Shown: piece by piece, positions 1 through 14,721 of the stretch
Numbering within the stretch: position 1 is the stretch's first letter
Layout of the letters: every line of letters starts with the position of its first letter
Made by a program: the position numbers and the translations under genes
Source: Clostridia bacterium
GTDB taxonomy: Bacteria; Bacillota; Clostridia; Oscillospirales; Acutalibacteraceae
Assembly: GCA_017410325.1 (NCBI GenBank)
Contig: JAFQRA010000008.1
Span: forward strand, 1-36,058
Direction of reading: 5' to 3'
Length of the DNA: 36,058 nt
The notes under the pieces: model-generated
Seen by the model: the letters and a program-made list of their open reading frames with translations, nothing else
The model's database searches: none
What the model was told of the DNA's origin: nothing

Positions 1-2480
1 CCACTCCGGAAGGCGATGAAGGTGACGGAACAACCCCGGAACCCACTCCGGAAGGCGATGAAGGTGACGGAACAACCCCGGAACCCACTCCGGAAGGCGA
101 TGAAGGTGACGGAACAACCCCGGAACCCACTCCGGAAGGCGATGAAGGTGACGGAACAACTCAGGAGCCCACACCCGAAGGTGACGAAGGCGACGGAACA
201 GAACCGGAGCCCACCCTTGAAGGTGATGGAACAGAACCGAAGCCCACACCCGAAGGAGACGAAGGCAACGGAACAGAACCGGAACCCGCTTACGAAAGTG
301 ATGAAGGCAGCGAACTTATTGAACCGGAAACCAAAAATATGCCTGTAAGCGATGAAACTAAAAAGAAGGACCCTTCAGCCGAAAATAAGGAAGGGCTCAA
401 GTTTGAACGCAAGCCGTATAATGAAAGTTATTACCTTCTTTTTGGTGGCGATAGCGAGCTTTCCTGTGTTGATCCGATAGGAACACTGAATTATCTGAAA
501 GGTCTGGGACTTGATAAGAATCCTCTTCGGCAGGCGCGTGAGGGTAAGAAGATAGCCCAACAGATTGAGGCAACCTTCAAGCCCGGCAAGCCGGATGCCA
601 GATATTGCGATTTCTGTGGTGCTGAAATATTCGGCGTTGAATTTGAAACCTTGTCTGACGGCAGAGACAGATGTTATAACTGTGGACGTACAGCTATAAA
701 AACTGAAAAAGAATTCCGCGAAATATTTGAAGATGTAAAGCGTAATATGGAATCTTTCTTCGGGATCAAGCTGAATGTCGGTATCCGGGTTGAAATGGTT
801 AACTCCCGTACGCTTCACAAACGGTTGAACGAAACCTTTATTCCCACAAAAGAGTTTGACGGACGCGTTCTCGGTGTAGCAATTGAGGATAAAAACGGTT
901 TCACAATTATGGTGGAAAACGGTTCTCCGAGAATGGCATCTATGCTTACAATTGCACATGAATTGACGCATATATGGCAGTATATCAATTGGAATAAAAA
1001 AGCCATTATCAAAAAGTACGGTAAAAAAATGCGTCTTCAGATTTATGAAGGCATGGCAAAATGGGCAGAAATACAGTACGCTTATCTTATAAATGAGCCT
1101 GCTGTTGCCAAGAGAGAGGAAATTATAACCTCCCACCGTACGGATGAATATGGCATCGGTTTCCTCAGATACAGAGCAAACTATCCCTTCTCAACGGGTA
1201 CTGTTATCACAAAGGCAACACCGTTTATGAATGTTCATACTCCGCTTGATCCTCAGTATTGTACAGCTTTTGTTTATATTGATCCCAATGCAAAAGTTCC
1301 GACAGGTGAGGATGAAGGCGATGGTCATGGCGGAAACGGTGGTAATGGTGGCAACGGAATAATTCCCGGCGGAGGAAAGGAGCCCATAAGGGGTTCCATT
1401 GAAAGAAATCCGGGCAACGTGCCGCTTTATGCGTACCAACACCTTTCCGATTCAGAAAAGGCAATGTATGATGTTATCGTTGATGCTGTTTATAATCATA
1501 AGCCGGATATTAAATCCATACCTTTGCAGATTCATAAGGATAATATGCAGAAGATTATTGATTACATAGACAGAGATCATCCTGAACTGATCTGGTTTAA
1601 CAGAGGTATATCCTACCTGTTTGATTCATCAAGCGGAATAGTAAGTGAGCTGAATTTCACATACTGCCTTACCGAAGAAGAAAGCAGTAAGAGGCATCAG
1701 GAAATCGAAGCATCGCTTAAGCCCTTTATGGATACCGTAACTGATAAAATGAGCGACTATGAGCTAGTTCTCAGAATTTACGAAAACATCATCAGACTGG
1801 TGGATTATGACACTATAGGACTTGAACGTCAGAAGAAATATTCACCTGTTACATCAGATAAGCCCGATGATTTAAGATCAATCTATGGTGTGTTTGTAAA
1901 CAAAAAGGCGGTTTGTGCAGGCTATGCCAAGGCAACTCAATATTTGCTTAACCTTTGCGGAATAGAGTGTGTTTATGTCACAAGCGACACGCATGCATGG
2001 AATTTGGTTAAGCTGGAAGGTGCTTATTATCACCTTGATACAACTTGGGGAGATTTATCAAACACCAAAAAAGAGAAAAATATTTCCGACCGAATACAGT
2101 ACGATTGTTTCTGTATTACAACGGCAGAGGTACTTAATCTTGAATACCACCAGCCGGAGAGTGATCTTCCCTTGCCTGAGTGTACGGCTACAAAATGCAA
2201 CTATTTCCACAGACACGGTCTTTTCTTTGAAAAATATAATTATGAAAAAGTTAAGGCAATTGTTGCGAAAAGTTTTGAAAACGGAGTTTTTGATATTAGT
2301 ATTAAATTTGCTGATAAAAAGGTATTGAGTGAAGCTGAAAGAGATCTCGTTACTAACAGCAAAATCCGTGAAGCAGCACAGAGCGTATCACTCAAAACAG
2401 GAGTAAGAGTTAATCTGAGTTACAGTTATTCTGTTCAGAAAGACAGCTTAATTCTCACGTTCCATTTTGCCAAGCTTTAA
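1..2480 (+). CDS. Partial: acidic-repeat protein with DA1-like metallopeptidase and transglutaminase-like domains
   Basis: The reading frame is open from position 3 without a stop, so the gene begins upstream of the window; the ATG at 339 is internal. Order: an acidic Pro/Glu/Gly/Asp tandem repeat (3-329), a charged linker, a zinc ribbon (CDFC and CYNC, about 605-680), a zinc metallopeptidase motif HELTH (957-971) with a downstream EGMAKW Glu (1047) as likely third ligand, a Gly/Asn linker (about 1315-1380), and a transglutaminase-like domain with Cys (codon 1914, VCAGYAKA), His (1992, THAWNL) and Asp (2037, LDTTWGD). Zinc ribbon followed by HExxH and a distal Glu is the arrangement of DA1 peptidases; that link is inference. 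It lies directly upstream of essC on the same strand and may be a secreted effector, a processing enzyme or a surface protein. The N-terminus is unseen, so localisation is open. Confidence 0.85.
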   Translation, partial: TPEGDEGDGTTPEPTPEGDEGDGTTPEPTPEGDEGDGTTPEPTPEGDEGDGTTQEPTPEGDEGDGTEPEPTLEGDGTEPKPTPEGDEGNGTEPEPAYESDEGSELIEPETKNMPVSDETKKKDPSAENKEGLKFERKPYNESYYLLFGGDSELSCVDPIGTLNYLKGLGLDKNPLRQAREGKKIAQQIEATFKPGKPDARYCDFCGAEIFGVEFETLSDGRDRCYNCGRTAIKTEKEFREIFEDVKRNMESFFGIKLNVGIRVEMVNSRTLHKRLNETFIPTKEFDGRVLGVAIEDKNGFTIMVENGSPRMASMLTIAHELTHIWQYINWNKKAIIKKYGKKMRLQIYEGMAKWAEIQYAYLINEPAVAKREEIITSHRTDEYGIGFLRYRANYPFSTGTVITKATPFMNVHTPLDPQYCTAFVYIDPNAKVPTGEDEGDGHGGNGGNGGNGIIPGGGKEPIRGSIERNPGNVPLYAYQHLSDSEKAMYDVIVDAVYNHKPDIKSIPLQIHKDNMQKIIDYIDRDHPELIWFNRGISYLFDSSSGIVSELNFTYCLTEEESSKRHQEIEASLKPFMDTVTDKMSDYELVLRIYENIIRLVDYDTIGLERQKKYSPVTSDKPDDLRSIYGVFVNKKAVCAGYAKATQYLLNLCGIECVYVTSDTHAWNLVKLEGAYYHLDTTWGDLSNTKKEKNISDRIQYDCFCITTAEVLNLEYHQPESDLPLPECTATKCNYFHRHGLFFEKYNYEKVKAIVAKSFENGVFDISIKFADKKVLSEAERDLVTNSKIREAAQSVSLKTGVRVNLSYSYSVQKDSLILTFHFAKL
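3..329 (+). repeat. 42-bp in-frame tandem repeat encoding acidic 14-residue units
   Basis: Units begin at 3, 45, 87, 129, 171, 213, 246 and 288. The first three are identical and read TPEGDEGDGTTPEP. The unit at 213 is 33 bp (11 residues) and the last is strongly diverged. All unit lengths are multiples of three, so copy-number change would keep the frame. The array continues past the left edge. It probably forms an extended, negatively charged stalk or linker. Confidence 0.95.
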
Positions 2481-2536: not shown

Positions 2537-5500
2537 ATGCAGATTGTCCTTATCAGAAAAAAAGAAATCCTGAAAACAGTGCTGCCAGCCAAAATAAGTG
2601 GTCAGCATCAGATTTTTTATGCAGAAAATGGTGAATTCAAGCCGTTGTGTGCTGTTTCTGCAGATAATGGTGAATGGGTAATAAAAGAAAACAAGAAAAC
2701 CGAACTGATTCAAAATTTTGTTACAGATGAATCGGGTAACAGAGAGATAAAATTAAAAGAAAACGAATTTTATATTTTAAGGTGCAGAGCGAACGATGAA
2801 CAGATGATTATTCTTGCTGAGCCTATCGGAACAGGTCGCTCGAATTTTTCGTTTTACAATGTGCCTGCCGATGGAATAATTAATGTCGGATATGAAAAAG
2901 AAAATCACATATGTTACCACGGCGGTTCGTTATCGCGGACCGTTGGTACACATATTGAATATAAACCAAACGGCAAAATACTGGTTAGCGATGCGGACAG
3001 TATTAACGGAATATATCTTAACGGCAAGAGAGTGACCGTTACAACAGAGGCGCGGTATGGTGATGAAATATATCTTGCCGGTTTAAGAATCATACTTGGT
3101 AACGGGTTTGTTGCTGCAAACAACCCCGACGGATGCGTAGCTTCTTCACTCGTTAAAAGGAATCAGGAATCTTTTGTGCTCAGAGATAAAGACGATGATT
3201 CGGACGAGAGCGTTTATGAGACCTTTTCTTCGGCGCCGAGGCAGAAAAACGGAATAAAACAGGAAAAAATAAGCGTGGAAAGTCCGCCTCAGCCATCGGA
3301 AGAACAAAAAACTCCGTGGTTGCTTGTTATGTGGCCGTCTATAACGATGGCTTTCGGTTCTGTTTTTTCGTCGGTATTTACCATACAGAATATAATGAAC
3401 AGCAACGGCGATATATCAAGCGCAATTCCAACGTTGGTTATGGCGGTTTGTATGGTTCTCGGTACAATAATATGGCCGCTTTTTTCAAAGCGATTTGAAA
3501 AAAGAAACCGTATAGCTAAGGACAATAAGAAAAAGCGCAGATATGCCGAACATCTTGAAAAGGTAAAAGGTATAATTGGTAAAGTAATTGAAAACCAGAC
3601 TGAACTTCTCAAAAAAAACAATCCGTCAATAGAAGAATGTATTTCACGCATTAACGCACGGGAAATGACTCTTTGGGAAAGGAGCCCTGTTCACGATGAT
3701 TTTCTTGATGTAATGATCGGCACAGGTGACATCCCTGCAAAAATAGAACTTGAATATTCAAAGCGCAGAGACACTGAAGAACTTGGCGAATCTGCAAAGG
3801 CCATGGACGAATTGGTCAATGCCGGGCGTATCCTAAAAAATGTGCCTGTCACAATTCCGTTTGCCAAAACAAAAATTGTTGGCATGACGGGCGAACGTTA
3901 TGAGGTCATATCTATTGTAAAGGCATTAATTATTGAGCTTACAGCTTTACATAACTATGAAGACCTTAAGATAATGTTTATATATAATGAAAAAGAGAAT
4001 CATCTGTGGAAGTTTGCAAAATGGATTCCTCATGTATGGAACAACGAAAAAACAGTCAGATTTATTGCTAATGATATAGATGAAGCCAAGGAACTTTCCA
4101 ATATCATTTCAAATATAAATGCGGTTTCGGAAAACGAAAGAGATGAAACTATAGCCACACGATACTTGATAATTGCGGCAGACCGTATTCTTGCGGAAAA
4201 AATTCAGGCACTGAAAGATTTTGTAAAAGAGCCCTCAAAATATAAAAACATTTCTTTGCTTGCACTGTATGATGAAAGAAAATATCTTCCTAAAAGCTGT
4301 TCGGTGGTGTGCAGTGCAGAGCAGTCGAGTCTGGTGGTTGCAGATTATAATAATATTGCTGAAAAGCCGCAAAAAATTGATGTACCCGTAAGATATGAAG
4401 GCGATCCGGAAAGTATATTTGTCAATATGGCAAATATCCGTCTGGACTCGCGCTCGGGTGAAACCATTCTTCCGACAGAACTTACATATCTTGAAATGTT
4501 TGGGGCGGGTAAACCAGAACATCTTGATGTGCTGTCACATTGGGAGGAGAACGATCCGGTTAAGTCGCTTGCGGCACCTATAGGTGTGGATGCTGACGGT
4601 TATACAATAAAGCTTGATATTCACGAAAAGGCACACGGACCTCACGGTCTTATTGCGGGTATGACAGGATCAGGTAAGAGTGAATTTATAATTTCTTACA
4701 TTGCCTCAATGGCAGTGAATTACTCTCCTGAAGAAGTTGCTTTTGTTCTTATCGACTTCAAGGGCGGAGGCATGGCAGATGTCTTTAAGAAATTGCCGCA
4801 CCTTGCAGGTAGTATTACAAACCTTGATGGAAATGAGTTGCAACGCTCGTTTATAGCTATTGAAAGTGAACTTGAAAAAAGGCAGACGCTTTTCAAAGAA
4901 ATCAGCGAAAAGAAAAAAATAAGTAATATTGATATTTATAAGTATCAAAAGCTCAGGCGTGAGGATAAAAGTCTTAAAGCATTGCCTCACTTGATTATAA
5001 TTTCTGATGAATTTGCTGAATTAAGGGATCAGCATAACGATTTTATGGATCAACTTATCAGAATAGCCCGAATCGGCAGAAGCTTAGGCGTTCATCTTAT
5101 CCTTGCAACGCAGAAACCCGATGGAGTGGTTAATGAGCAGATTAAGAGTAATATCAAATTTAAAGTCTGTCTGAAGGTTCAGGATAAGGCGGACAGCCAA
5201 AGTGTTATCGGCAGACCTGATGCAACGATGATAACCAACGCAGGCCGTTTTTATTTGCAGGTTGGTTATAATGAAATTTTTGAATACGGTCAGTCACCAT
5301 GGTCGGGTGCGCCGTATTTCCCTGCTGATCAGTACAAAAAAACTTCGGATAATTTTGTCGATATTCTCAACGAACAGGGCAGAACACTTTACCGCGTTAA
5401 GCCGAAGGCTCAACCCAGACCTGCTAATGTGCCCGAAAAGCAGATAGATGCACTGATCGATTATCTTAGTGAACTTGCAAAAACAAGAAATTGCTGTGCA

Positions 5501-7084
5501 GATAAGCTTTGGCTTGAGCCTTTGCAGGGCCCTAAAGAGAAATTGAAAAAGACAAACCGCAATTCAGGAGAAGAAGCTTTTGTTCTTAACCCCGTGGTTG
5601 GTATGTATGATGATCTGAAAAACCAGAAGCACTGTGTTATGCGTGTGCCTTTCACAGAGGGTGGAAATACGGTTATCTATGGTTCTAGCGGTAGCGGAAA
5701 ACTTTCATTTCTCAACAGCTTGCTTGTATCGATTATTGAAAAACACTCTTGCGAAGAGGTTTCAATATACGCACTCGATTTTGATTCCGGTTCGCTTTCA
5801 GCCTTCGAAAATGCTCCGCAGGTGAAAATGATTGCTCTTTCGGAAGAACTCTCTTTGGTTGATAAAACATTTGAAGAAATTGAGAAAGAACTTGATTTCA
5901 GAAAAAATGAGTTCAGGCGCTTTGGCGGAGATTATCAGAATTATGTCAGGACCTCAGGAAAAACATTACCTAACATTGTTCTTGTAATCAGCAATTTCCT
6001 TGCGTTTTCTGAAACGGCAGGCAGCGCAGAGGATAAACTTTCCAGAATTGCCAGAGAAGGAAAGAAGTACGGTATATTTGTTGTTATAACAGCCATGGAT
6101 TCCCGTTCTGTGCGTCAGTTTGTTCCGCTGTTCAGTAATGTTTATGTTCTTCAGCTGAACAACATAGAACAGTATGGTGACATTCTCAACAAAACAGGCG
6201 GACTTATTCCCGGTGGATTCAAGGGCCGAGGTATATTCAGACAGGACGATTCCGTTTACGAATTTCAGACAAAAATGGTGTTTGAGGATATGGAGAATAC
6301 TTATGATGCCATTGCTTCTTTCTGCACAAGTGTGAGTGAGAAATCATGCGTCAAGAAGCCTGAGGTTAAGCAAGTTCCCGAAGTTGTAACAAAAAAATAT
6401 TTTGAAGAACTGGGGCTTGAATTCCGTGCGAACAACCTTCCCGTTGCAGTGGACAAAGAAACGATTGAGCCAATATGTATGGATTTCAGTGCAGCGGTAG
6501 CTTCAGCAATAGTTTACGAAAAACGTGCATTGCCATCCGTTCGGACAATTTGCGAAGAGCTTGTTGCAGCGGAAGATGATATAATTGTTATCGACCCGTA
6601 TAAAACACTCGGTATAAGTGATTCAAAAGTGCTTTCAGATGCTTCAAGAATTGAGGAGTTTATAAACGATCTGGAAAGTCTGGTTTATAACCGTGCGGCA
6701 GAAGCAATATCCGAAAAGAGTGCAGGCAATCCGATCCCTGATTTTAAGCATATATATATTGTTGTCAATGGTTTTTATGCATTGAAAAATCTGATACCAG
6801 AAAATATGCTTATAAAATTCAGCGGTATGATTTTCAACATAAATGATCCGTACCATATCAATATTATTATTGTCAGTGACGTTGAAACCTATGATAAGGA
6901 AATAAGTTATATTTCCGGAATGTCTCCGTTTGCCCAAGGAATTACTTTTTCGGATTCATCTGTTAATTATTCATTTTTTGAAAAGAAATTTTCAAAAATC
7001 TGCGAAAAAGGTTATGCTCATTTTGTTGTTGATAATGTAAGGCGGACAGGAAAGGCTCTTACAAAACAGGAGGAGGGTGAATAA
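2537..7084 (+). CDS. essC: Type VII secretion ATPase EssC (FHA-FtsK/SpoIIIE)
   Basis: This is the membrane ATPase motor of Firmicutes T7SSb; at 1515 aa it is close to the usual length of about 1480. An N-terminal FHA-like region (about residues 90-195, GRSNFSFYNVP and SINGIYLNGKRV) precedes two membrane helices (about 259-282 and 296-315). The first FtsK/SpoIIIE domain is intact, with Walker A GMTGSGKSE near residue 708, LIDFKGGGM, and Walker B LIIISDEFAEL. The second has GSSGSGKLS near 1049, where the Ser/Thr after Lys is replaced by Leu, and a weak Walker B (LVISNFLAF), so it may not hydrolyse ATP. The third is degenerate. The start at 2537 is 6 nt after GGGGAG; an ATG at 2533 is out of frame. 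The esaB-like gene begins 2 nt after the stop. Confidence 0.97.
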   Translation: MQIVLIRKKEILKTVLPAKISGQHQIFYAENGEFKPLCAVSADNGEWVIKENKKTELIQNFVTDESGNREIKLKENEFYILRCRANDEQMIILAEPIGTGRSNFSFYNVPADGIINVGYEKENHICYHGGSLSRTVGTHIEYKPNGKILVSDADSINGIYLNGKRVTVTTEARYGDEIYLAGLRIILGNGFVAANNPDGCVASSLVKRNQESFVLRDKDDDSDESVYETFSSAPRQKNGIKQEKISVESPPQPSEEQKTPWLLVMWPSITMAFGSVFSSVFTIQNIMNSNGDISSAIPTLVMAVCMVLGTIIWPLFSKRFEKRNRIAKDNKKKRRYAEHLEKVKGIIGKVIENQTELLKKNNPSIEECISRINAREMTLWERSPVHDDFLDVMIGTGDIPAKIELEYSKRRDTEELGESAKAMDELVNAGRILKNVPVTIPFAKTKIVGMTGERYEVISIVKALIIELTALHNYEDLKIMFIYNEKENHLWKFAKWIPHVWNNEKTVRFIANDIDEAKELSNIISNINAVSENERDETIATRYLIIAADRILAEKIQALKDFVKEPSKYKNISLLALYDERKYLPKSCSVVCSAEQSSLVVADYNNIAEKPQKIDVPVRYEGDPESIFVNMANIRLDSRSGETILPTELTYLEMFGAGKPEHLDVLSHWEENDPVKSLAAPIGVDADGYTIKLDIHEKAHGPHGLIAGMTGSGKSEFIISYIASMAVNYSPEEVAFVLIDFKGGGMADVFKKLPHLAGSITNLDGNELQRSFIAIESELEKRQTLFKEISEKKKISNIDIYKYQKLRREDKSLKALPHLIIISDEFAELRDQHNDFMDQLIRIARIGRSLGVHLILATQKPDGVVNEQIKSNIKFKVCLKVQDKADSQSVIGRPDATMITNAGRFYLQVGYNEIFEYGQSPWSGAPYFPADQYKKTSDNFVDILNEQGRTLYRVKPKAQPRPANVPEKQIDALIDYLSELAKTRNCCADKLWLEPLQGPKEKLKKTNRNSGEEAFVLNPVVGMYDDLKNQKHCVMRVPFTEGGNTVIYGSSGSGKLSFLNSLLVSIIEKHSCEEVSIYALDFDSGSLSAFENAPQVKMIALSEELSLVDKTFEEIEKELDFRKNEFRRFGGDYQNYVRTSGKTLPNIVLVISNFLAFSETAGSAEDKLSRIAREGKKYGIFVVITAMDSRSVRQFVPLFSNVYVLQLNNIEQYGDILNKTGGLIPGGFKGRGIFRQDDSVYEFQTKMVFEDMENTYDAIASFCTSVSEKSCVKKPEVKQVPEVVTKKYFEELGLEFRANNLPVAVDKETIEPICMDFSAAVASAIVYEKRALPSVRTICEELVAAEDDIIVIDPYKTLGISDSKVLSDASRIEEFINDLESLVYNRAAEAISEKSAGNPIPDFKHIYIVVNGFYALKNLIPENMLIKFSGMIFNINDPYHINIIIVSDVETYDKEISYISGMSPFAQGITFSDSSVNYSFFEKKFSKICEKGYAHFVVDNVRRTGKALTKQEEGE

Positions 7085-7086
7085 TA

Positions 7087-7338
7087 ATGAACAAGATTCT
7101 TATTGAAGTGACTTCACCTGCCGCAGAACAAAGCTACGATATGTTGGTCCCGGATAATATGCAAGTGGGCGAATTTGCCACGCTTGTCAATGAGGTTTTC
7201 TCAAAAATCTCAAACGGTATTTATCGGTTCAACGGTTCTTATGTAGTCAGCGAAAAGGTTACCGGTTCAATCCTTAAGCCTGAGATGACTATGAAGGAAT
7301 CAAACATCAGAAACGGCTCAAAATTAATTTTATATTAA
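7087..7338 (+). CDS. esaB: EsaB/YukD-like ubiquitin-fold T7SS protein
   Basis: At 83 aa this is the usual size of EsaB/YukD. It starts with a beta-strand (KILIEVTSP), followed by DMLVPDNMQVGEFATLVNEVF, typical of the ubiquitin-like fold, and ends in NIRNGSKLILY, matching the 'L.dG..L.l' end of YukD proteins. EsaB is a small cytoplasmic component or regulator of T7SSb. It starts 2 nt after essC, with the GGAGG ribosome-binding site inside the essC 3' end, so the two are likely translationally coupled. Assignment rests on size, predicted fold and position rather than a diagnostic motif. Confidence 0.85.
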   Translation: MNKILIEVTSPAAEQSYDMLVPDNMQVGEFATLVNEVFSKISNGIYRFNGSYVVSEKVTGSILKPEMTMKESNIRNGSKLILY

Positions 7339-7357: not shown

Positions 7358-7642
7358 ATGTATTACGATACCGGTGCAATCAGAAGAACAGCTGCAGATA
7401 TCCGCAGCGAACTCAAAACTTACACAGCCTCCAAAAACAAGGTGGAATTAACTATCGAGGGAATGAACAGTTACTTTAGCGATCCCGTTCAGCAGGATTT
7501 TGTAAAGCGTTACAGGAATGAGCTCAAGGAGACCGTAATCGGTATTGAAAAGCTTATGAACCAGTATGCAGACTACCTTGATGAATGTGCCAGAGCAATT
7601 GATAAGGCGATAGAAGAAGGCAAGTCAGCCATAAACGGTTAA
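7358..7642 (+). CDS. WXG100-superfamily small helical protein (motif degenerate)
   Basis: A 94-aa, almost all-helical protein. The central turn of WXG100 proteins is represented by NSYFSDPVQQDF, with Phe and Ser in place of the usual W-x-G. The second helix, FVKRYRNELKETVIGIEKLMNQYADYL, matches the normal helix-turn-helix plan. It has no signal peptide, as expected for a T7SS substrate. A strong ribosome-binding site (AAAGGAG) lies 8-10 nt upstream. It sits between esaB and a second WXG100-like gene and probably pairs with it or with the lipase downstream as a secreted heterodimer; that pairing is inference. Confidence 0.8.
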   Translation: MYYDTGAIRRTAADIRSELKTYTASKNKVELTIEGMNSYFSDPVQQDFVKRYRNELKETVIGIEKLMNQYADYLDECARAIDKAIEEGKSAING

Positions 7643-7662: not shown

Positions 7663-7971
7663 ATGGCTAACAATACATCGACAATTGATATTAAGAAGGT
7701 TAATGCAGCAGGTACGGAAATTATTGATGAAGGCAAAAAAATGTTTAATTCCCTTGAGAACATTAAAAACATAATTAACCAGGGCAAGAAGAGCTTTGAC
7801 AGTGAAGGTGGTGAAGAAATCAGAAAAAACTTCAACACGTCTGCACAGAAGTTTGAAGAGTTCAAGAGGTTTGTAGCTAAGTACGGCGAGTTTCTTCAGA
7901 ACTACAGTGAAGAACAGAGAAGACTTAATGAAGAAATTGCAAAGATTGCTCAGAAGATTACCAAGCTTTAA
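7663..7971 (+). CDS. WXG100/ESAT-6-like secreted protein
   Basis: 102 aa, two long amphipathic helices separated by KKSFDSEGGEEI. The SEGG turn corresponds to the W-x-G turn, with Phe in place of Trp. The C-terminal helix ends EEQRRLNEEIAKIAQKITKL and resembles helical secretion-signal tails, although a strict YxxxD/E is not obvious; the nearest is YSEEQ. It has no signal peptide. The start is preceded by AAAGGAGG. It is the last gene before a hairpin and may be expressed at a higher level than the downstream genes. Confidence 0.85.
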   Translation: MANNTSTIDIKKVNAAGTEIIDEGKKMFNSLENIKNIINQGKKSFDSEGGEEIRKNFNTSAQKFEEFKRFVAKYGEFLQNYSEEQRRLNEEIAKIAQKITKL

Positions 7972-7986
7972 GAGTGCGCTTTGGTG

Positions 7987-8010
7987 GCAGGCGGCTTAAT
8001 TGCTGCCTGC
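7987..8010 (+). promoter_or_regulatory. Hairpin after the WXG100 genes
   Basis: A 9-bp stem (gcaggcggc / gctgcctgc, one G-U pair) with a 6-nt loop lies 15 bases after the WXG100 stop and is followed only by a short T-run (tgctttt). It could partly terminate transcription or protect the esx-like mRNA from decay, giving more esx message than lipase message. Confidence 0.5.
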
Positions 8011-8062
8011 TGCTTTTGAGCTTTATTAAGTGTGTTTTCAGCGCAGTTTACAAGGTGGTTTT

Positions 8063-8758
8063 ATGAAAAAGAGTTTTAGGTTTTTGTGCCTTTTTACGGC
8101 AACTATATTAACGGTATTCGGAGTGAGCGGTTGTATGTCAGAAACCAATATCAGAATCAGTACGGACGGTATGATTAATTATATGGAAAATAAGTATAAT
8201 GATGAGTTTGAATATGTCGATTCTTTCGGTGGAGCAGATGATAACACGAATAAGAATATTATAATAAAGTCGAAAAAATATCCGGACAATGAAATTTCGG
8301 TTAGTATTTTCGATGGTGAAGGAAAAACACACATTACAGAGAACTATACTCAGTTCAGATTCAAGGACGAAACAGAAAAATATTTAACATCTATGATGAA
8401 CACGTTGTTCGGAAACGATGTTATTGTAACATATAATATAAGCTCAGGTGGCACGGCAAACAGCTTTACAGAAAAAACATCTTTTGAAGAATTCATTTCA
8501 GACAGCGCATCCGGAATATTCTTTCGGGTGGTAGTCGGCACTTCGTTTTCAACACAGGATATGCAGACGGTTGCCAATGCAGTAAGAAAGGCTGCTGAAG
8601 AATCACCCGCAATTATGTGTGCGGAAATTTATTTTGCATCTTCCGAGGATTTGTTCAGACCTTGCAGTGAACTTGCAAATTACGAAAAAAATCAATTACA
8701 CAGAGTTTATTTTGAAAAGGATACGGTAAACAGTATTTCAGATTTTGAATGGCGGTGA
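8063..8758 (+). CDS. Lipoprotein, candidate lipase-immunity protein (TilA-like position)
   Basis: 231 aa from the ATG at 8063, chosen because AAGGTGG sits 6 nt upstream and the protein then begins with a clean signal peptide (MKKSFRFLCLFTATIL) ending in a lipobox VSGC. A start at 8030 would spoil the signal. The mature part is mixed alpha/beta and acidic, with no motif I recognise. The gene ends 4 nt before the lipase start. In S. aureus the T7 lipase toxin TslA is neutralised by a cell-surface lipoprotein encoded next to it; the same arrangement here suggests self-protection. Function is inferred from position and lipidation only. Confidence 0.8.
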   Translation: MKKSFRFLCLFTATILTVFGVSGCMSETNIRISTDGMINYMENKYNDEFEYVDSFGGADDNTNKNIIIKSKKYPDNEISVSIFDGEGKTHITENYTQFRFKDETEKYLTSMMNTLFGNDVIVTYNISSGGTANSFTEKTSFEEFISDSASGIFFRVVVGTSFSTQDMQTVANAVRKAAEESPAIMCAEIYFASSEDLFRPCSELANYEKNQLHRVYFEKDTVNSISDFEWR

Positions 8759-8762
8759 TAAA

Positions 8763-10886
8763 ATGGGCAACCCTCTTTCGGACAACACAGTTTCTGAAAT
8801 AAATAAAGCGGCTGTTCTGGATTGGTATGCATATGATGATGACCAGCTTGAAGAGTACGAAAGCAAAGAGAATATTATTGATGTTCTGGATTGTTCAAAA
8901 AAACATGGCAGAGCGCTTGGCGAAAACGAAGCGCTCAGAGAAGCTATTGAAAAAAACGGACTCAGTGATTTTAAGCTTATAAAACAAAGCAGTACAACCG
9001 TCAGAAGTGTAGATGCCAGCGGCAATTACAAAATGAACGAGGTTATTGCTTACGCATTCCGCGATGAAAAAACCGGAGATATTTATATTATTTACCGCGG
9101 TACAGGCGATGGCAAATGGGTTGACAACGGTGAAGGCCTTGTGAAGGCGGAAACTGTTATGCAGCGCCGTGCAGCAGAGTTTTATGACGATGTAATAAGG
9201 GCTGAAGGACTGGACAAAGAAAACCCCGATAACCGCAGAGTTATTGTAAGCGGACATTCCAAGGGCGGTAACCTTGCCCAGTTTGTTACAATGGCATCGG
9301 AATATGCGGAGCTTGTTGACGTCTGTTATTCGATTGATGGCCAGGGCTTTTCCAAAGAGGCGATAAAATCATTTAAAAAAAGATGGGGAGAGGATTATCA
9401 GAAAATTGTTGATAAAATGTATTCCATCAACGGTAAGAACGACTATGTACATGACTTAGGTCACGTTATTATAAATGAGAATCAGACCTATTTTATCGAC
9501 ACAAAAGGCAGCGGTTTCGGTGCGTGGCACTTAATAGACTGTTTTTTTGAAGATGGAAGATTTTTGTGGGATGAGAACGAGAACCCAGAAATAAGGTTTA
9601 ACATACCGCAAGGTTCTGTAGGCTTGTTTGTAAAAGAAGTTTCTGCAAATATGATGATGCTGAATGATGAGGAGATCGAGGATTGTGCCATTACCGTTAT
9701 GTGGTTGCTTGAACTTTTTATGAAAAGCGAGACGGCGGAAGGCAAAGATGTAAACTCGCTTATTGGTACAGGTAACAGAAAATCAGCAACCATTGAGGAA
9801 ATGGCAGGATTTTTAAAAGTCGGCGTGCCTATGCTTATCAATATTTTTGGTAAAAGCGAACATGCCAAAGGCTTTATTGAAGAACTAGGCTTAGGCAGGT
9901 ACGGCATAATTATAGACGAGATTCAGAAATTTGTTAATGAAAAAAATATAGATCTCGGTCAATATATTCTTGAAGATCCTATGCGCCTTATTACAATTTA
10001 TTCTTCTTTTGATCTGAGCAAGAAAAAAGTTCACGAATTGGTGGCAATACTTTGTTCGGTAAATGGTCTGGCGAAATTTGTTGCCACGGCTTTTCTGCCT
10101 GTTCCGATTGTTGCTTTAGCGGATATAGTTGGTGGCTTGGTTACGGCAGCTGCAACAATCGGTATCATAGCAAACCATATACTTCTCAACTGGGATAAAT
10201 TTGTTGAGAATGTCAAGGCATCGCTTGAGTACATAGGCGATCAGATAAACAAGGCGGTTGATTTTGCCGTTGGCAAAGCCATAGAGGGTTACGAATATGT
10301 TACGGATAAGATTGATCAGGCCGCTGACTATATTTACAATAAGGTAACAGAGCTGTATACCAGCATAAGGAATACTGTGCGCAAAGAGCTCAATGAAACT
10401 GTTGGAAAGATTTACGGTGTTGCAGAGAGCATAATTACAAAAAGCACGCGCTTTTTCGATAAGGCCTGTGAACTTCTAAGTAAGGCACAGAAGGTTTCTA
10501 TTGCTGTAATGGATAAAGTGTTAAAGTATACAAATCCTCTGTTCTATTCTATAGCATCATCTGTTTACAGAGCCAGACAGAGCATCATTTCTATCAATAT
10601 AAAGAAGCTTAAGGAATGTGTGAATACGCTTTATAGGCTGGCAACGAGAATATCTGCTCTTGACACGCGGCTGGACAACCTTTATTATAAGCTTTCAAGA
10701 AACAACATTGAGCAGGAGGAGGGTGTGTTCACTTCTCTGGCAAGTATATATAATCTTTTCAGCGCAGATCTTAATATAGATCAGGGCGGCGTAATTAGAC
10801 GCAAGGCGAGGGCCCTCTCCGAGCTTGTTGAGAAATTTGAAGCTACAGAGAGAAAAATTATAAACGGTGTTCCCCATGTCGGTTGA
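8763..10886 (+). CDS. Lipase with C-terminal helical LXG-like domain, probable T7SS effector (TslA-like)
   Basis: The start is ATG 8763, preceded by GGCGGTGA; an in-frame TTG at 8745 is less likely. The N-terminal part is an alpha/beta-hydrolase of the Mbeg1/DUF2974 or class 3 lipase type: IIYRGTGDG, then the nucleophile elbow VSGHSKGGN (Ser about 166), with NDYVHD (Asp about 227) and GAWHL (His about 256) completing a plausible triad. From about residue 300 it is helical, with a hydrophobic stretch near 440-480, then a coiled-coil-like region (IEGYEYVTDKIDQAADYIYN) to the end. Catalytic N-terminus plus helical C-terminus is the reverse of normal LXG toxins and is the layout of S. aureus TslA. 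It has no signal peptide. A lipoprotein gene lies before it and a 64-aa helical protein after it. The substrate is unknown; phospholipid is likely. Confidence 0.85.
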   Translation: MGNPLSDNTVSEINKAAVLDWYAYDDDQLEEYESKENIIDVLDCSKKHGRALGENEALREAIEKNGLSDFKLIKQSSTTVRSVDASGNYKMNEVIAYAFRDEKTGDIYIIYRGTGDGKWVDNGEGLVKAETVMQRRAAEFYDDVIRAEGLDKENPDNRRVIVSGHSKGGNLAQFVTMASEYAELVDVCYSIDGQGFSKEAIKSFKKRWGEDYQKIVDKMYSINGKNDYVHDLGHVIINENQTYFIDTKGSGFGAWHLIDCFFEDGRFLWDENENPEIRFNIPQGSVGLFVKEVSANMMMLNDEEIEDCAITVMWLLELFMKSETAEGKDVNSLIGTGNRKSATIEEMAGFLKVGVPMLINIFGKSEHAKGFIEELGLGRYGIIIDEIQKFVNEKNIDLGQYILEDPMRLITIYSSFDLSKKKVHELVAILCSVNGLAKFVATAFLPVPIVALADIVGGLVTAAATIGIIANHILLNWDKFVENVKASLEYIGDQINKAVDFAVGKAIEGYEYVTDKIDQAADYIYNKVTELYTSIRNTVRKELNETVGKIYGVAESIITKSTRFFDKACELLSKAQKVSIAVMDKVLKYTNPLFYSIASSVYRARQSIISINIKKLKECVNTLYRLATRISALDTRLDNLYYKLSRNNIEQEEGVFTSLASIYNLFSADLNIDQGGVIRRKARALSELVEKFEATERKIINGVPHVG

Positions 10887-10902
10887 TTCAGGAGGTTAAA
10901 CT

Positions 10903-11097
10903 ATGGATTGGGCATTAAGACAGGAGATTAATTCCTGTATATCAGAAATTAATTCAATTGTCCGTCAGTTGCGCTATGTGTCGGATGATGTGGCAAACAG
11001 TATAAGCGGTATGAACACAAAAAAATACACCCAGAGTATTAATAACGCTGCTGATAAATATGAAAAAGCGGCAAAAAAACTCAGAACGATAAAGTAA
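10903..11097 (+). CDS. Small helical protein, candidate partner of the lipase (TlaA/Lap-like)
   Basis: 64 aa, no signal peptide, two predicted helices: QEINSCISEINSIVRQLRYV and YTQSINNAADKYEKAAKKL, joined by SISGMNTK. This is a shortened WXG100-like hairpin. An AGGAGG ribosome-binding site lies 8 nt upstream and the gene starts 16 nt after the lipase. In characterised T7SSb toxins, small helical partners bind the LXG or reverse-LXG helices and are needed for export, which fits size and position here. Homology cannot be shown by eye at this length. Confidence 0.7.
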   Translation: MDWALRQEINSCISEINSIVRQLRYVSDDVANSISGMNTKKYTQSINNAADKYEKAAKKLRTIK

Positions 11098-11110
11098 GAG
11101 AGGGTTGATT

Positions 11111-12661
11111 ATGGAGTGTAAAAAATGCGGCAAAAACATAGCTGAAGACGCTACAGGAATTTGCGCTGATTGTGCCGCTGACGAGGCCGAGAAAAAGGCG
11201 TTGGAAAGAAACTATTTTTGGCGCGAGGTAAACAAAAATCAGTCAGCCATTGAGGATTTTGGTTATTGTGTAAAAACCGAAATAAGAAAATCTGAAAATA
11301 CAGTTATCTATATTGCAACCAATGATAACGATGAAACTGTTGCTATTAAAAAGATTACGGTTCCGTACGATAGTGTTTCGGCAAGAAATTCAACGGATAT
11401 TCACAAAGAAATTTCCGAGCGAGTACGCGCGGAAATGGAGGATCTTTCAAATATCAGCAAAGAAATCGGAAACAGATTTGTTATCACCTATTATGATTAT
11501 AAATTGGTTTATAACGATGAAAGCTATAAATACGATTTGTACATAAAGATGGATTATCTGACTTCCCTTGGCAGCCTTTATGTCAATATGGAGTATACGG
11601 TAGCTGATATGTTGCGTATGGGTATCGATGTGTGTGATGCACTGGAATGGTGTCACCAAAACGGTAAGGTGCACAACAACCTCAATCTTAATAATGTTTT
11701 TATTAATAACGAGGGACGATATGTTCTTGGAGATTTTGCATTTTCTGCAAACGATAAGAATGACTGTGAATATTGCATGGCTCCGGAATTGTTTTACGGT
11801 GATTTGCCCTGCCCATCAACGGATCTTTACAGCCTGGGTATGTTGATGTTTGTGTTGCTTAACGGTGGGTTGCCGCCGTTTGCACAACTGCCGCAGGATA
11901 TCAAAATGGCAGAAGAACGCCTCAGAAACGGTGAAAAACCCGTTTTGCCAAATAAGGTAAACAGCCGTCTGAGGGAGGTTATTCATCGCGCTGTCGATTC
12001 AAAGGCAGACAGATATGCTTCGGCAACCGAGTTTAAAAACGAACTTAAGCATTTGTTATCTTTTATGCCTGAGGATTGGTTGAAACAGCCTGTCGGTGAA
12101 ATATTTGAGATGGAACAGGAGAAAAAGTCTCAGCCTGAACCGAAGAGGAAAATCGATGAAGAAAAGAAACCTGAGGAGAAGAAATCTGAAGAAGAGAATG
12201 ACATACCGATTTCAACGGTTGAAGATGAGGATGTAAAAAAAGGGAACCGTAAGGATATGGTTATTTTGGCTGCTGTAATTGTGGTTATTGCGGCTGCTAT
12301 TGCGGTTGGGGTGCTTGTCCTTTCCAATGCAGGAAATAGAAAAATTTATTCCCTTATCGAAAGTGAATCATATGCTGTTGCGTATAAAGAAATATCAGAA
12401 CTATACAGTAACGGAAAAAATGTAGATTCATTAGCTCGCACATATATTGATGCGTGTTGCGATGACAGGGAATATAACCGTGTTGTTCAAGCGGTTTTGT
12501 TGCTTTCTGAGGAGGCTTTTGATGATATTGAATATTTCAGAAATATCTTAAGCCAGATGTTGGATAGCGGAAAATACCGACAGGCAGATTCGCTTGCGGA
12601 AATACTGTACGAATATGAAAATATGTATACCATGCTTGAAGACTTGGGATATCAGATCTGA
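11111..12661 (+). CDS. Membrane-anchored pseudokinase with N-terminal zinc ribbon (EssB-like role)
   Basis: 516 aa from ATG 11111. It begins with a zinc ribbon (CKKC and CADC), then a Hanks-type kinase fold: a degenerate Gly-loop, VAIKKI (Lys 80), then HNNLNLNN where HRDLKPxN is expected, so the catalytic Asp is Asn 190. DFG is DFA (208-210), followed by an APE motif (MAPELFYG) and DLYSLGML. After a charged Lys/Glu linker comes one membrane helix (about 381-403) and an outside domain of TPR-like helices. EssB/YukC of T7SSb is also a cytoplasmic pseudokinase with one membrane helix and a helical outside part, and no other essB candidate is visible, so I infer this is the EssB equivalent. An alternative is an independent signalling pseudokinase that reads the EssC FHA domain. 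Confidence 0.8.
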   Translation: MECKKCGKNIAEDATGICADCAADEAEKKALERNYFWREVNKNQSAIEDFGYCVKTEIRKSENTVIYIATNDNDETVAIKKITVPYDSVSARNSTDIHKEISERVRAEMEDLSNISKEIGNRFVITYYDYKLVYNDESYKYDLYIKMDYLTSLGSLYVNMEYTVADMLRMGIDVCDALEWCHQNGKVHNNLNLNNVFINNEGRYVLGDFAFSANDKNDCEYCMAPELFYGDLPCPSTDLYSLGMLMFVLLNGGLPPFAQLPQDIKMAEERLRNGEKPVLPNKVNSRLREVIHRAVDSKADRYASATEFKNELKHLLSFMPEDWLKQPVGEIFEMEQEKKSQPEPKRKIDEEKKPEEKKSEEENDIPISTVEDEDVKKGNRKDMVILAAVIVVIAAAIAVGVLVLSNAGNRKIYSLIESESYAVAYKEISELYSNGKNVDSLARTYIDACCDDREYNRVVQAVLLLSEEAFDDIEYFRNILSQMLDSGKYRQADSLAEILYEYENMYTMLEDLGYQI

Positions 12662-12679
12662 GACACAGGAGATGCTAAA

Positions 12680-13156
12680 ATGAAAAAAATTCTTTTCAGA
12701 GCGATTGCTATAATAATGTTACTTGTTATGACGGTGGGGCTTTCAGGGTGCGATAAATCTGACAGCGAAATTGAAAACCTGCTTACTGAGTTTGAATATG
12801 CGTGTAATACGCTCGACTTTGACGCAGCACTGAATTGTATTGATCCCAGGGTATCTGACAAAATCAAGGTTGCAACAAATATTCTGGGAATGTTTACTTC
12901 TCAGGATCGAGAAGAACTCTTTGAAAAGCTCGCAAGTGTCATTGCAGATGTTTCTGAAATAAACGGATTGGAGTTTTTTGAATCAATACAGATTGATTTG
13001 CAGGAAATCATTGACGATGAAGAGTATGATTATTTAAAATATGCCTTTACATATGTAACATATGATTTGGCGGGCGAGGAAATGACGAAGGAAGCATATT
13101 TTACCTTTGAAAAATATGTGGATAAATGGTATATTACAAGCTTTAGGTTTGAATAA
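12680..13156 (+). CDS. Small lipoprotein, NTF2/DUF4878-like
   Basis: 158 aa. The N-terminus is a lipoprotein signal (MKKILFRAIAIIMLLVMTV) with lipobox LSGC. The mature part begins with a helix (LLTEFEYACNTLDFDAALNCID), then strands ending YFTFEKYVDKWYITSFRFE, the pattern of NTF2-like domains (DUF4878 type). It starts 18 nt after the pseudokinase with an ACAGGAG ribosome-binding site, so it is the last gene of the T7SS operon. It may be a second immunity lipoprotein or a surface component of the machine; sequence alone does not decide. Confidence 0.8.
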   Translation: MKKILFRAIAIIMLLVMTVGLSGCDKSDSEIENLLTEFEYACNTLDFDAALNCIDPRVSDKIKVATNILGMFTSQDREELFEKLASVIADVSEINGLEFFESIQIDLQEIIDDEEYDYLKYAFTYVTYDLAGEEMTKEAYFTFEKYVDKWYITSFRFE

Positions 13157-13171
13157 AATAAAAATAATATC

Positions 13172-13200
13172 TTGCAAAAATTGTCGGATTAAGTTATAAT
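13172..13200 (+). promoter_or_regulatory. Sigma-A-type promoter for the small Cys-pair membrane protein
   Basis: TTGCAA, 17-bp spacer, perfect TATAAT. It starts 16 bases past the preceding lipoprotein stop and shows that the next gene is transcribed separately from the T7SS operon. Confidence 0.75.
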
Positions 13201-13277
13201 GTTTTCAATGCATATTTGGTTTAAATTCGCAGACGGAAGAATTTGCGGTTTAATAAAACATATTGGAGGTTTTTTTC

Positions 13278-13556
13278 GTGGCTAAGAAAAAGAAAAGTTT
13301 TCCCATTGTTCCGGTACTTGTGCTTGTTATAGTTGTTCTTGTCGGTGCGTTTGTAGGGCCTAAGGTTGTTCACGAATGTGCGGATTGTGGCGAAACGTTT
13401 TTCGGCGCAGGATATGAGCCCAGTGAAGTGATTGAATTCTTGGAAGGCTCTAAGGGTGATGACAATGTTATCTGCGAAGAATGCGCAGAAGAACAGCATG
13501 CTATTGAGCTTGCATTAGGCAAGACATTGGAAGATTTCAAATTAGATATTTTCTGA
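13278..13556 (+). CDS. Small membrane protein with two CxxC pairs
   Basis: 92 aa with a GTG start at 13278, 8 nt after a GGAGG. A short basic N-terminus (VAKKKKSF) precedes one membrane helix (PIVPVLVLVIVVLVGAFVG) and an outside or cytoplasmic tail with CADC and CEEC 33 residues apart, a probable zinc-binding ribbon interrupted by an acidic loop. It has its own promoter and terminator. I do not recognise the family. It may be unrelated to the T7SS. Confidence 0.7.
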   Translation: MAKKKKSFPIVPVLVLVIVVLVGAFVGPKVVHECADCGETFFGAGYEPSEVIEFLEGSKGDDNVICEECAEEQHAIELALGKTLEDFKLDIF

Positions 13557-13574
13557 TAAACTAAAAAGCCAGAC

Positions 13575-13607
13575 AAACGACACCGCCACATTGTGGCGGT
13601 GTCGTTT
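13575..13607 (+). terminator. Strong hairpin terminator
   Basis: A long stem (aaacgacaccgccaca pairing with tgtggcggtgtcgttt) lies 19 bases past the stop of the small membrane protein. The A and T ends let it work in both directions, separating the T7SS side from the tRNA side. Confidence 0.85.
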
Positions 13608-13694
13608 CAATTTGTAAAAATGCATTCTGCCGGTTCCGTTATGTGTACGGTATGTTACTGCACTGAACTGTTTTCTTAACGCAAAAACTCTCCC

Positions 13695-13707
13695 GAGTTC
13701 GATTCTC
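13695..13707 (+). other. Isolated tRNA T-arm-like sequence
   Basis: gagttcgattctc, preceded by ccc and followed by cg, is identical to the T-arm of the tRNA-Glu at 13753-13827 but in the opposite orientation and outside any tRNA. It could be a degraded tRNA copy or old attachment-site remnant at the edge of the T7SS block, or chance, since the 13-mer is nearly self-complementary. Confidence 0.4.
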
Positions 13708-13715
13708 CGAAAACA

Positions 13716-13751
13716 TAAAAAATAAAGAGCACACAAAAGTGTACTCTTTAT
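13716..13751 (-). terminator. Terminator of the tRNA-Met/tRNA-Glu transcript
   Basis: On the minus strand, a 13-bp stem (one mismatch) with a 4-nt loop lies directly after the tRNA-Glu CCA end and is followed by a T-run (complement of aaaaa at 717-721). Confidence 0.8.
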
Positions 13752-13752
13752 C

Positions 13753-13827
13753 TGGTGACCCGGACGAGAATCGAACTCGTGTTACCGCCGTGAAAGGGCG
13801 GTGTCTTGACCGCTTGACCACCGGGCC
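13753..13827 (-). tRNA. tRNA-Glu (UUC)
   Basis: 75 nt with encoded CCA. Acceptor GGCCCGG pairs with CCGGGTC (one G-U). The anticodon stem-loop is CCGCC-CTTTCAC-GGCGG, anticodon TTC. The T-arm is CGAG-TTCGATT-CTCG. It is co-transcribed after tRNA-Met, 30 nt downstream. Confidence 0.97.
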
Positions 13828-13857
13828 GTATGAGCCGAGAAAACTCTCGGCTGTTTG

Positions 13858-13934
13858 TGGTAGCGGCAGTGGGACTTGAACCTACGACACTCCGGGTATG
13901 AACCGAATGCTCTAGCCAACTGAGCTATGCCGCC
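13858..13934 (-). tRNA. tRNA-Met (CAU), elongator type
   Basis: 77 nt with encoded CCA. Acceptor GGCGGCA pairs with TGCCGCT. The anticodon stem-loop is TTCGG-TTCATAC-CCGGA, anticodon CAT. The three consecutive G-C pairs of an initiator tRNA are absent and the body resembles Bacillus elongator tRNA-Met rather than tRNA-Ile2. Confidence 0.95.
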
Positions 13935-13947
13935 ACAAAGCTTGTTT

Positions 13948-13976
13948 ATTATATTATAACCAAAAGAATTTGTCAA
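13948..13976 (-). promoter_or_regulatory. Consensus promoter for the tRNA-Met/Glu operon
   Basis: On the minus strand TTGACA (13971-13976), 17-bp spacer, TATAAT (13948-13953), ending 13 bases before the mature tRNA-Met 5' end. This is a perfect -35/-10 pair, as expected for a stable-RNA promoter. Confidence 0.9.
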
Positions 13977-14025
13977 TAGTTATTTATAAAAATTTTAAAA
14001 AAATTGTCAGTTTATTTCTTGCTTT

Positions 14026-14580
14026 TTACCAGTAATCCACATCGCTGTAATCCTCCGGCTCGAAAGCGTAGTGAATTTCGGAATTATAAATGTCAAAGTT
14101 TTTGTTGTTATGCAATGAGCCGAGATTATATATTTTTTTACCGTTTTTTAAGGCGTATTTCATTGCTTGATAAGCTCCGCCGTAATTGTGATTTACGTAA
14201 AAAACCGATAAATCAGAACGGTCGATAACAGAACGGTTGCGTATGCCGTAAGCGGCCTTCGGGTGAGCATTGCAGGACTCCTCGCAAATTTCAATATCGT
14301 TATAAAAGCTGTTAAGACCCATATTGCGTTCGACGTAGTCGGGCATAATATACGGCAGGACGAGAACATGTGAGTTCTGAACGTCACCGAACAGCTTTTG
14401 TTCGTGTTTGATTGCGGAGGATACGATTCTGTCAAAATCGCCGCCCGTACTGACAAGGAACTCGGTGTAATAATTGCGGTTTATCATCAGGCGTACAATT
14501 TCTCTGAGTTTTTCGTCAAGTTCCCATATATCACCCTCAATAAGTCTGTGTCCGAAAAAACTGACGGTACAAGAACGCAT
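14026..14580 (-). CDS. SLOG-domain (DUF1273/YpsA-like) protein
   Basis: 184 aa. The Rossmann-type SLOG fold shows in VSFFGHR near the N-terminus, STGGDFDRIVSSAI (nucleotide-loop region, about 44-57) and a C-terminal IDRSDLSVFYV followed by GGAYQAMKYALKNGKKIYNL. SLOG proteins bind nucleotides or nucleotide-derived ligands, and some act in phage-defence or stress pathways. It is divergently transcribed from an XRE regulator that probably controls it. The ribosome-binding site is weak (GGATGTGAG) but the promoter is near consensus. Confidence 0.85.
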   Translation of the reverse strand: MRSCTVSFFGHRLIEGDIWELDEKLREIVRLMINRNYYTEFLVSTGGDFDRIVSSAIKHEQKLFGDVQNSHVLVLPYIMPDYVERNMGLNSFYNDIEICEESCNAHPKAAYGIRNRSVIDRSDLSVFYVNHNYGGAYQAMKYALKNGKKIYNLGSLHNNKNFDIYNSEIHYAFEPEDYSDVDYW

Positions 14581-14600
14581 AATCTCACATCCTATATATA

Positions 14601-14652: not shown

Positions 14653-14685
14653 AATAGATAATACAGCAAATTATCTTGGTGAAAA

Positions 14686-14713: not shown

Positions 14714-14721
14714 GAGTAATT

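Follow-up and report, generated by a model that had tools for sequence, protein, structure and literature searches.

The DNA analysed here, called the window below, is a stretch of 36,058 nucleotides from a Clostridia bacterium; it is an entire contig (JAFQRA010000008.1) of a genome of 2.67 Mb that is 96% complete. It carries a type VII secretion system (T7SS) cluster, cut at the left end of the contig. Within this cluster, between essC, yukD and two WXG100-like genes upstream and a kinase-like gene downstream, lies a trio of genes for a lipoprotein, a lipase and a helical protein of 64 residues. A preliminary description had singled out this trio, and the list of open reading frames (ORFs) bears out its layout (lipoprotein 8063-8758, lipase 8763-10886, 64-residue protein 10903-11097). 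We propose that the lipase of this locus is an antibacterial enzyme of reverse architecture, exported by the type VII system, with partner pairing, motif-led export and lipoprotein immunity, and we place the probability of this reading at about 0.7. The features on which it is based are these.

8063..8758, + strand: lipoprotein, candidate immunity protein, family A5, with lipobox VSGC
8763..10886, + strand: lipase of reverse architecture, candidate T7-exported toxin, 707 residues, with Pfam Mbeg1-like and DUF6792 matches and GHSKGG
10077..10133, + strand: most hydrophobic 19-residue stretch (residues 439-457), between the lipase domain and the export module, Kyte-Doolittle mean 2.02
10581..10871, + strand: C-terminal WXG100-like export module (residues 607-703), defined by profile A2
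10836..10850, + strand: FEATE, which fits the pattern [FY]xxx[DE] and lies 16 residues before the lipase C-terminus; the pattern recurs in 17 of 21 module-bearing ORFs
10903..11097, + strand: 64-residue helical partner, degenerate short WXG100-like protein of the A4 family, defined by the A4 profile, with an AGGAGG ribosome site

The lipase ORF is listed from TTG 8745 (713 residues), and we adopted ATG 8763 as its start, which gives the 707 residues above. This codon is only 4 nucleotides past the stop of the lipoprotein gene (8756-8758) and no strong ribosome site precedes it, so that the assignment is likely but not certain, and translation of the two genes may be coupled. The lipoprotein ORF is listed from GTG 8030 (242 residues) and comprises 231 residues from ATG 8063. 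The 64-residue protein begins at ATG 10903, 16 nucleotides past the lipase stop. A search of 300 family genomes found relatives of the lipase in 25, and the surroundings of 20 of these were fetched in addition to the window; those of G272, G166, G223 and G019, which gave weak matches, were left out. Homologous ORFs co-occur in the relatives, and the trio is therefore real, well beyond chance.

In Pfam the lipase exceeds the curated cut-offs of Mbeg1-like, with E 8e-11, and of DUF6792, with E 3e-8. The GHSKGG elbow with Ser166, together with Asp227 and His256, is found at the positions previously claimed for a catalytic triad. Across the 12 rows of an alignment of T7-linked relatives, Ser and His are invariant and an Asp stands at 227 in 10, the other two rows being L002_11 and L034_8; Asp192, within DGQGF, is kept in all 12. 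The absence of a signal peptide from the lipase also holds, by reading of the sequence, no predictor being applied.

Part of the lipase relatives at T7SS loci have in common a terminal unit of about 100 residues. A profile of this module (A2; 90 positions, nine rows from nine ORFs at eight loci) matched in 22 of 398 family genomes, at 12 strong places distributed over 10 genomes and at 15 weak places. All 12 strong places are ORFs carrying a GxSxG lipase domain. Seven of the weak places lie in open frames of 104-143 residues, and the five that were read out proved to be WXG100-like proteins of 97-99 residues. In a sample of the order, A2 matched 12 of 394 genomes at E 1e-5, eight of them new. 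The profile thereby recovered 12 further ORFs in 11 further loci, for a total of 21 module-bearing ORFs in 19 loci, including that of TWA4, a member of the Lachnospiraceae. GxSxG is present in 20 of the 21; the remaining ORF, L099, is cut ahead of its lipase domain.

When A2 was compared with a WXG100 profile (A8) by hhalign, the two aligned end to end over 91 columns (96.5%, E 8.4e-10, score 53.8). The reversed profile scored 21.4, 100 column-permuted profiles scored at most 18.6 and 100 profiles permuted in blocks of seven columns at most 28.6. Four of the 11 rows of A8 had first been met as hits of the module search. With the seven rows that are independent of that search the comparison gave 90.6%, E 1.3e-6 and a score of 38.1, the controls having been run for the full A8. 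Judged by these profile comparisons, the module is homologous to WXG100 proteins. Like WXG100 and EsxA proteins it is about 100 residues long and bears [FY]xxx[DE] near its C-terminus, and in contrast to them it forms the tail of an enzyme and has no WXG motif. The [FY]xxx[DE] motif is present in 17 of the 21 module-bearing ORFs, 12-16 residues from the end; in the remaining four, Leu occupies the position of Phe or Tyr. Motifs of this type serve the secretion of Lap and T7SSa substrates (PMC10730906), and by analogy the module lipases may use theirs as an export signal. This yields a specific prediction, that the signal resides in the last 16 residues of the lipase itself; in the available passages of PMC10730906, its location is left open. 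A GxL turn motif like that of TslA, the T7-secreted lipase of Staphylococcus aureus, was also sought and is not conserved; in the alignment the window module has an insert at this place. At another locus (L084, 9007-11976) three tandem proteins have a common N-terminal module that resembles the C-terminal module of the lipase, followed by differing C-terminal parts. The hhalign match between the two modules was 92.3% (score 39.8), with permuted controls reaching 33.1, and the match of the L084 modules to WXG100 was poor (4.5%), so that this link is suggestive at most.

The small helical partner proposed beside the lipase is a regular companion of the module. The A4 family occurs at 18 of the 19 module loci and at none of the 19 other fetched loci; the A4 profile was built from five of those 18, and the remaining 13 are independent of its construction. 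Some of the small partner ORFs were missed by our simple script gene caller and recovered by a six-frame search. At L098, the locus without a match, the lipase ends 75 nucleotides from the contig end. The partner gene lies 3' of the lipase gene in 11 loci and 5' of the lipoprotein gene in seven, giving the order partner-lipoprotein-lipase in L030-L033 and L093-L095. Against the WXG100 family TIGR03930 the 64-residue protein scores E 3e-4 and 20.9 bits, below the cut-off of 44.85.

A close association of the module with essC is equally evident. At E 1e-80, 39 of the 398 family genomes have EssC, 34 of them with scores over the cut-off, and each of the 10 in which the module match is strong belongs to these 39 (P 3e-11). 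EssC is also positive in TWA4 and in three genomes of the order sample, and in the five remaining order genomes it was found in the fetched stretch, in L097 just as a fragment at the edge of this stretch. The preliminary description had regarded a regular occurrence of the lipase without essC, or without the lipoprotein, as evidence against its interpretation. No strong module match was found outside EssC genomes, while module-less lipase domains do occur without EssC; thus, in G164, G172 and G084, which have module-less lipases, the genomes show FtsK-type matches only. The lipoprotein is missing at three of the 17 assessable module loci, so that the counter-evidence named there exists in part.

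The lipobox VSGC occupies residues 21-24 of the lipoprotein as counted from ATG 8063, and its Gly-Cys is invariant in the eight aligned A5 members. The A5 profile matched in 14 of the 398 family genomes at E 1e-3, and the seven strong matches (E <1e-60) are all in genomes with module lipases. A member of this family adjoins the lipase in 14 of the 17 assessable module loci, a count that includes TWA4, where the lipoprotein is represented by two overlapping ORFs, and a weak match in L097; L079 and L099, in which the lipase is cut by the contig end, lie outside it. These frequencies suggest that immunity by the lipoprotein is likely, though not universal. At E 0.1 DUF576, the family of TilA, the lipoprotein of the TslA locus, had no match in the window lipoprotein or in the eight aligned members, and membership in that family was rejected. 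A relationship to a solved structure was likewise rejected: of 13 matches in the PDB to E 1, the best had E 0.055 and none was convincing. The two overlapping lipoprotein ORFs of TWA4 (L002, 8974-9656) may reflect a broken gene or an error in the draft. In L041 (464-6401) an A5 ORF lies ahead of an ORF of 1718 residues that gives a lipase match; EssC was not found in this genome, and the lipoprotein-lipase pair may have an alternative export route.

Trees of the lipase domains and of the modules point to different histories for the two. The lipase-domain tree has 36 rows and a separating branch with support 80/92; its bootstrap values had yet to converge, and long branches lead to L077_7 and L078_12. 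L079_9 and L099_0, both truncated at contig ends, were placed in the module tree only, the near-copies L094_9 and L095_7 of L093_7 were excluded from both trees, and L103 and the 1718-residue L041 ORF were excluded from the lipase tree. On the lipase tree the module-bearing lipases require seven label changes, of which at least four are forced by well-supported branches. A single clade for all module lipases was rejected (p-AU 4e-73), as was a clade joining the lipase domains of the window and TWA4 (p-AU 1.9e-10), both tests having been chosen after the tree was seen. In the module tree, by contrast, the window module and that of TWA4, its closest relative, are sisters (100/100); the sequence identity of the two proteins is 48.5% in the module and 31% in the lipase core. 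Since the modules are sisters and the corresponding lipase clade is rejected, the histories of lipase domain and module differ. L034 and L077 each have two tandem lipases that fall on opposite sides of the 80/92 branch (L077_7 being on a long branch); their modules belong to one family, and those of L034 group as sisters (91/99). In L097 an A-type module is joined to a lipase domain of the B-type clade (100/100). The trees therefore point to an exchange of lipase domains onto a common C-terminal module.

A second, B-type module provides a related observation. In L037, residues 387-479 of the lipase match residues 3-95 of a neighbouring protein of 503 residues (E 1.6e-11), and the B-type profile also matches this neighbour (E 2e-10). 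One helical module is thus C-terminal in one protein and N-terminal in the one next to it (9667-13921). The L037 genome contains EssB and an EsaA match under the cut-off. This arrangement is a natural experiment for end-independence, and natural pairs of this sort are available for asking whether a T7SS recognises a given module regardless of the end that it occupies. As a general picture, to which we give slightly better than even odds, these proteins may be mirror-image polymorphic toxins, in which a WXG100-derived C-terminal tag carries the ATPase signal and pairs with one mini-WXG partner, lipases are swapped N-terminally, and T7SS modules work at either end. Downstream of the 503-residue protein, L037 has five consecutive genes for proteins of 217-232 residues (13924-17390), the first with a lipoprotein-like start, which perhaps form an array of immunity genes.

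LXG and other polymorphic toxins combine a constant export part with an exchangeable toxin part, small helical partners and an adjacent immunity gene. The window lipase has these features in the reversed order, with the constant part C-terminal and the variable part N-terminal. The closest studied analogue is the tilA(lipoprotein)-tslA-tlaA1-tlaA2 locus of S. aureus (PMC10730906). The preliminary description had assigned a different gene order to the window, but the order is the same as the published tilA-tslA-tlaA, and we rejected gene order as a novelty for this reason. As in the TslA-TlaA1-TlaA2-TilA system, which belongs to a T7SSb, the lipase comes first and the helical part last, the lipoprotein gene is 5' and the partner gene 3', and the nucleophile lies in GxSxG, the triad positions being very similar, 164/224/251 in TslA and 166/227/256 in the window, a comparison of spacing only. 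Unlike the TslA locus, with its two partners, the window has one dedicated partner followed by the kinase-like gene at 11111; unlike TilA, its lipoprotein has no DUF576 match; and its machine is a non-b T7SS. The window lipase itself bears [FY]xxx[DE], whereas the termini of TlaA1 and TlaA2 are described as having no clear motif (PMC10730906). It is also longer, TslA having about 100 residues past codon 345, and a hydrophobic linker is not mentioned for TslA in the available passages of that paper. There the C-terminal domain of TslA is compared with EsxA by structure prediction, its toxin domain is noted as polymorphic, and structure-based searches are foreseen as possibly needed for further reverse substrates; here a sequence profile of 90 positions sufficed to find further module-bearing ORFs. 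Earlier work already records reverse lipases at loci of the T7SSe (Neobacillus) and T7SSg (Paenibacillus) types (PMC11217815). They resemble the window lipase in belonging to non-b T7SS loci and are just named in the available text, with module, partner and immunity unanalysed. Reverse lipases of such loci were thus known before, and the window lipase is a variant of that type. In the literature covered, which comprised few subscription papers and included passages of PMC12558993, PMC11878206, PMC13355648 and PMC11322744, there was no description of the module-partner family, of WXG100 homology of lipase C-termini or of lipase-domain exchange.

The type of the machine requires correction, as the locus had been described as a T7SSb operon. 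Neither EssB/YukC (PF10140) nor EsaA (TIGR03929) has a match in the window genome, with B. subtilis as a positive control. Because both are unmatched in a genome that is 96% complete, the machine is not a T7SSb. EssB was unmatched in all 11 module genomes searched, that of the window included, the B. subtilis control again being positive. EsaA gave matches under the cut-off in TWA4 and G184, two of the 11 module genomes, and also in G030; four controls, B. subtilis among them, were positive, one over the cut-off. Features of T7SSe and T7SSj are present, namely an EssC with an FHA domain, a YukD-like protein and a membrane kinase with degenerate motifs, and the cluster resembles this group. The DUF6382-FHA protein (TsxJ; PF19909) has no match in the window genome and has matches in seven of the 11 searched genomes, five over the cut-off. 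No phosphatase of the PPM/PP2C type (TsxF) turned up among the 30 window proteins scanned, a set confined to a contig that breaks off within the cluster. In having no DUF6382 match, and, as far as the scanned window proteins go, no PP2C protein, the window differs from the T7SSe and T7SSg loci. By these profile searches, reverse toxins are now extended to a T7SS without EssB or EsaA.

In the mechanism that we envisage, the N-terminal alpha/beta-hydrolase domain would be the toxin, probably a phospholipase. A hydrophobic linker would lead from it to a C-terminal WXG100-like helical hairpin, which would form a WXG100-type helical bundle with the 64-residue partner. The aromatic-x-x-x-acid motif near the C-terminus of the lipase, of the kind used by WXG100 and Lap proteins, would present the complex to the EssC-type ATPase of the non-b T7SS. 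The exported lipase would attack membrane lipids of neighbouring cells, and the surface lipoprotein would bind the lipase domain outside the cell and so protect the producer.

Several observations weigh against this interpretation. A full-length model of the lipase (input from the window, TWA4 and five IMG/VR sequences) had a mean predicted local distance difference test score (pLDDT) of 46.1, the lipase core being better, and a model of the module alone (window and TWA4) had a mean of 59.8, with a long and a shorter main helix and a short helix between them. C-terminal helices had been claimed, and a helical half is indeed predicted, at low confidence; with such values neither the hairpin nor its interface is established. 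Searched against the PDB, profiles A2 and A4 both have designed coiled coils as their top matches (E 4.9e-8 each), so that helical composition contributes to the profile matches, and EsxA is matched only at E 0.66. The relation of the partner to WXG100 is weak (hhalign 63.9%, score 28.3, against 19.9 for the reversed profile). Asp227 is not kept in every relative. At the T7SS loci L037, L039, L040 and L080 the lipases end in a different module, which implies that A2 misses some T7-linked lipases. No lipoprotein is recognisable at L036, L078 and L096. Conversely, A5 also matches in six of 19 module-less loci: L037, L039, L040 and L080, which are T7SS loci of B-type lipases, and L038 and L041, from genomes in which EssC was not found. 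The lipoprotein therefore follows the lipase and not the export system, which we read as behaviour expected of an immunity protein, yet not as a tie to T7 export. Finally, the window was set against TslA, TilA and TlaA by description and triad spacing and not by direct sequence comparison. Of the initial proposal of a reverse T7 lipase, there remain the lipase at the front, the C-terminal helical module, the partner, the adjacent lipoprotein and the link to essC; the T7SSb assignment and the supposed novelty of gene order fall away.

A T7-exported lipase might instead serve the producer, for example by loosening that cell's envelope lipids so that the machine can be assembled, the lipoprotein being a regulator or a surface receptor. 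At L036 (4947-12611) the lipase is embedded in the core cluster, with an FHA/DUF6382 protein on one side and a second WXG100-like pair with a PP2C phosphatase on the other, and no lipoprotein adjoins it. L096 (4273-11886) is alike by sequence reading, its FHA- and PP2C-like genes being unscanned, and also has no adjoining lipoprotein; at L078 there is upstream just an ORF of 231 residues without a lipobox. Loci without a lipoprotein leave room for such a role, which we nevertheless consider rather unlikely, because the differing histories of lipase and module, the tandem lipases of different lineages (L034, and L077 with its long branch) and the lipoprotein at 14 of 17 loci are typical of polymorphic toxin-immunity pairs.

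Lipases are commonly digestive and host-directed enzymes, and the window lipase could be a digestive enzyme or an effector against an animal host. A surface lipoprotein encoded beside the gene is, however, what an enzyme that attacks the producer's own type of membrane would need, and TslA is antibacterial and, in the words of a section heading, 'not required for virulence in a mouse abscess infection model' (PMC10730906); we therefore hold this role to be very improbable. We give as little credence to the idea that the lipase is no T7 substrate and that its hydrophobic stretch anchors a cell-bound enzyme, with the proximity of essC incidental. The stretch at residues 439-457, with its Kyte-Doolittle mean of 2.02, would fit an anchor, and a related module-less lipase (L035), whose genome shows no EssC, ends in a similar one. 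Opposed to this are the restriction of strong module matches to EssC genomes (10 of 10), the homology of the module to WXG100 proteins and the dedicated partner that travels with it. On balance an exported antibacterial lipase, kept from harming its producer by the lipoprotein, accounts best for the locus.

Among the database searches, Foldseek found nothing for the full-length model at E 0.001, and its best-ranked entries were mostly lipases and esterases of the alpha/beta-hydrolase fold, including 3o0d. PDB sequence searches with the lipase and the partner returned nothing useful, and a plasmid collection gave no match. IMG/VR contributed five loci, four of them with lipases of 368-403 residues. 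In the remaining one (L105, 4751-7578), by reading, a lipoprotein ORF precedes a lipase of 470 residues and helical LXG-type genes lie around the pair, so that it looks like a bacterial T7SS toxin island in spite of its viral filing.

The other features of the cluster, outside the trio, are the following.

3..2480, + strand: transglutaminase-like core protein, cut by the contig edge, directly 5' of essC (Pfam Transglut_core E 1.1e-5)
2537..7084, + strand: EssC/TsxC ATPase with FHA domain (TIGR03928 E 6e-262, over the cut-off; Pfam FtsK_SpoIIIE and FHA)
7087..7338, + strand: YukD/EsaB-like ubiquitin-fold protein, TsxB (Pfam YukD E 9.7e-7, over the cut-off)
7358..7642, + strand: WXG100-like protein 1 (weak WXG100 match, E 0.04, under the cut-off; two homologues at the same place in L002)
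7663..7971, + strand: WXG100/ESAT6-like protein 2 (NF035934 ESAT6_2, E 4.6e-15, under the cut-off)
7983..8014, + strand: hairpin of 13 base pairs between the WXG100 genes and the toxin cassette (fold of -28.9 kcal/mol over a 70-nucleotide stretch)
11111..12661, + strand: membrane protein with kinase-like domain, TsxD-like (Pfam Pkinase E 2e-15; hydrophobic stretch at residue 385)
12680..13156, + strand: small lipoprotein with lipobox LSGC (L002 gene 15, at the TWA4 locus, is homologous; phmmer E 3e-22)

The hairpin at 7983..8014 has a z-score of -3.5, its stability was equalled in none of 200 shuffles, and a T-rich stretch lies 3' of it; it is not among the results of the terminator scan. It is possibly an attenuator or processing site, and may set the expression of the WXG100 genes relative to that of the lipoprotein-lipase-partner cassette. 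The catalytic motifs of the kinase-like protein are HNN and DFA, in place of the canonical HRD and DFG, and it is therefore perhaps a pseudokinase. TscD of T7SSc, by contrast, is described as having a conserved active site (PMC11217815); the window protein may be a pseudokinase that takes the place of EssB. The transglutaminase-like protein at 3-2480 also matches NCBIfam NF045980 (E 1.2e-19), far under the cut-off, and has a distant relative in L049 (phmmer E 3e-14), a locus at which no EssC match was seen. Beyond the T7SS cluster, at 18863-19447, the window encodes a small cohesin-domain protein (Pfam E 5e-7).

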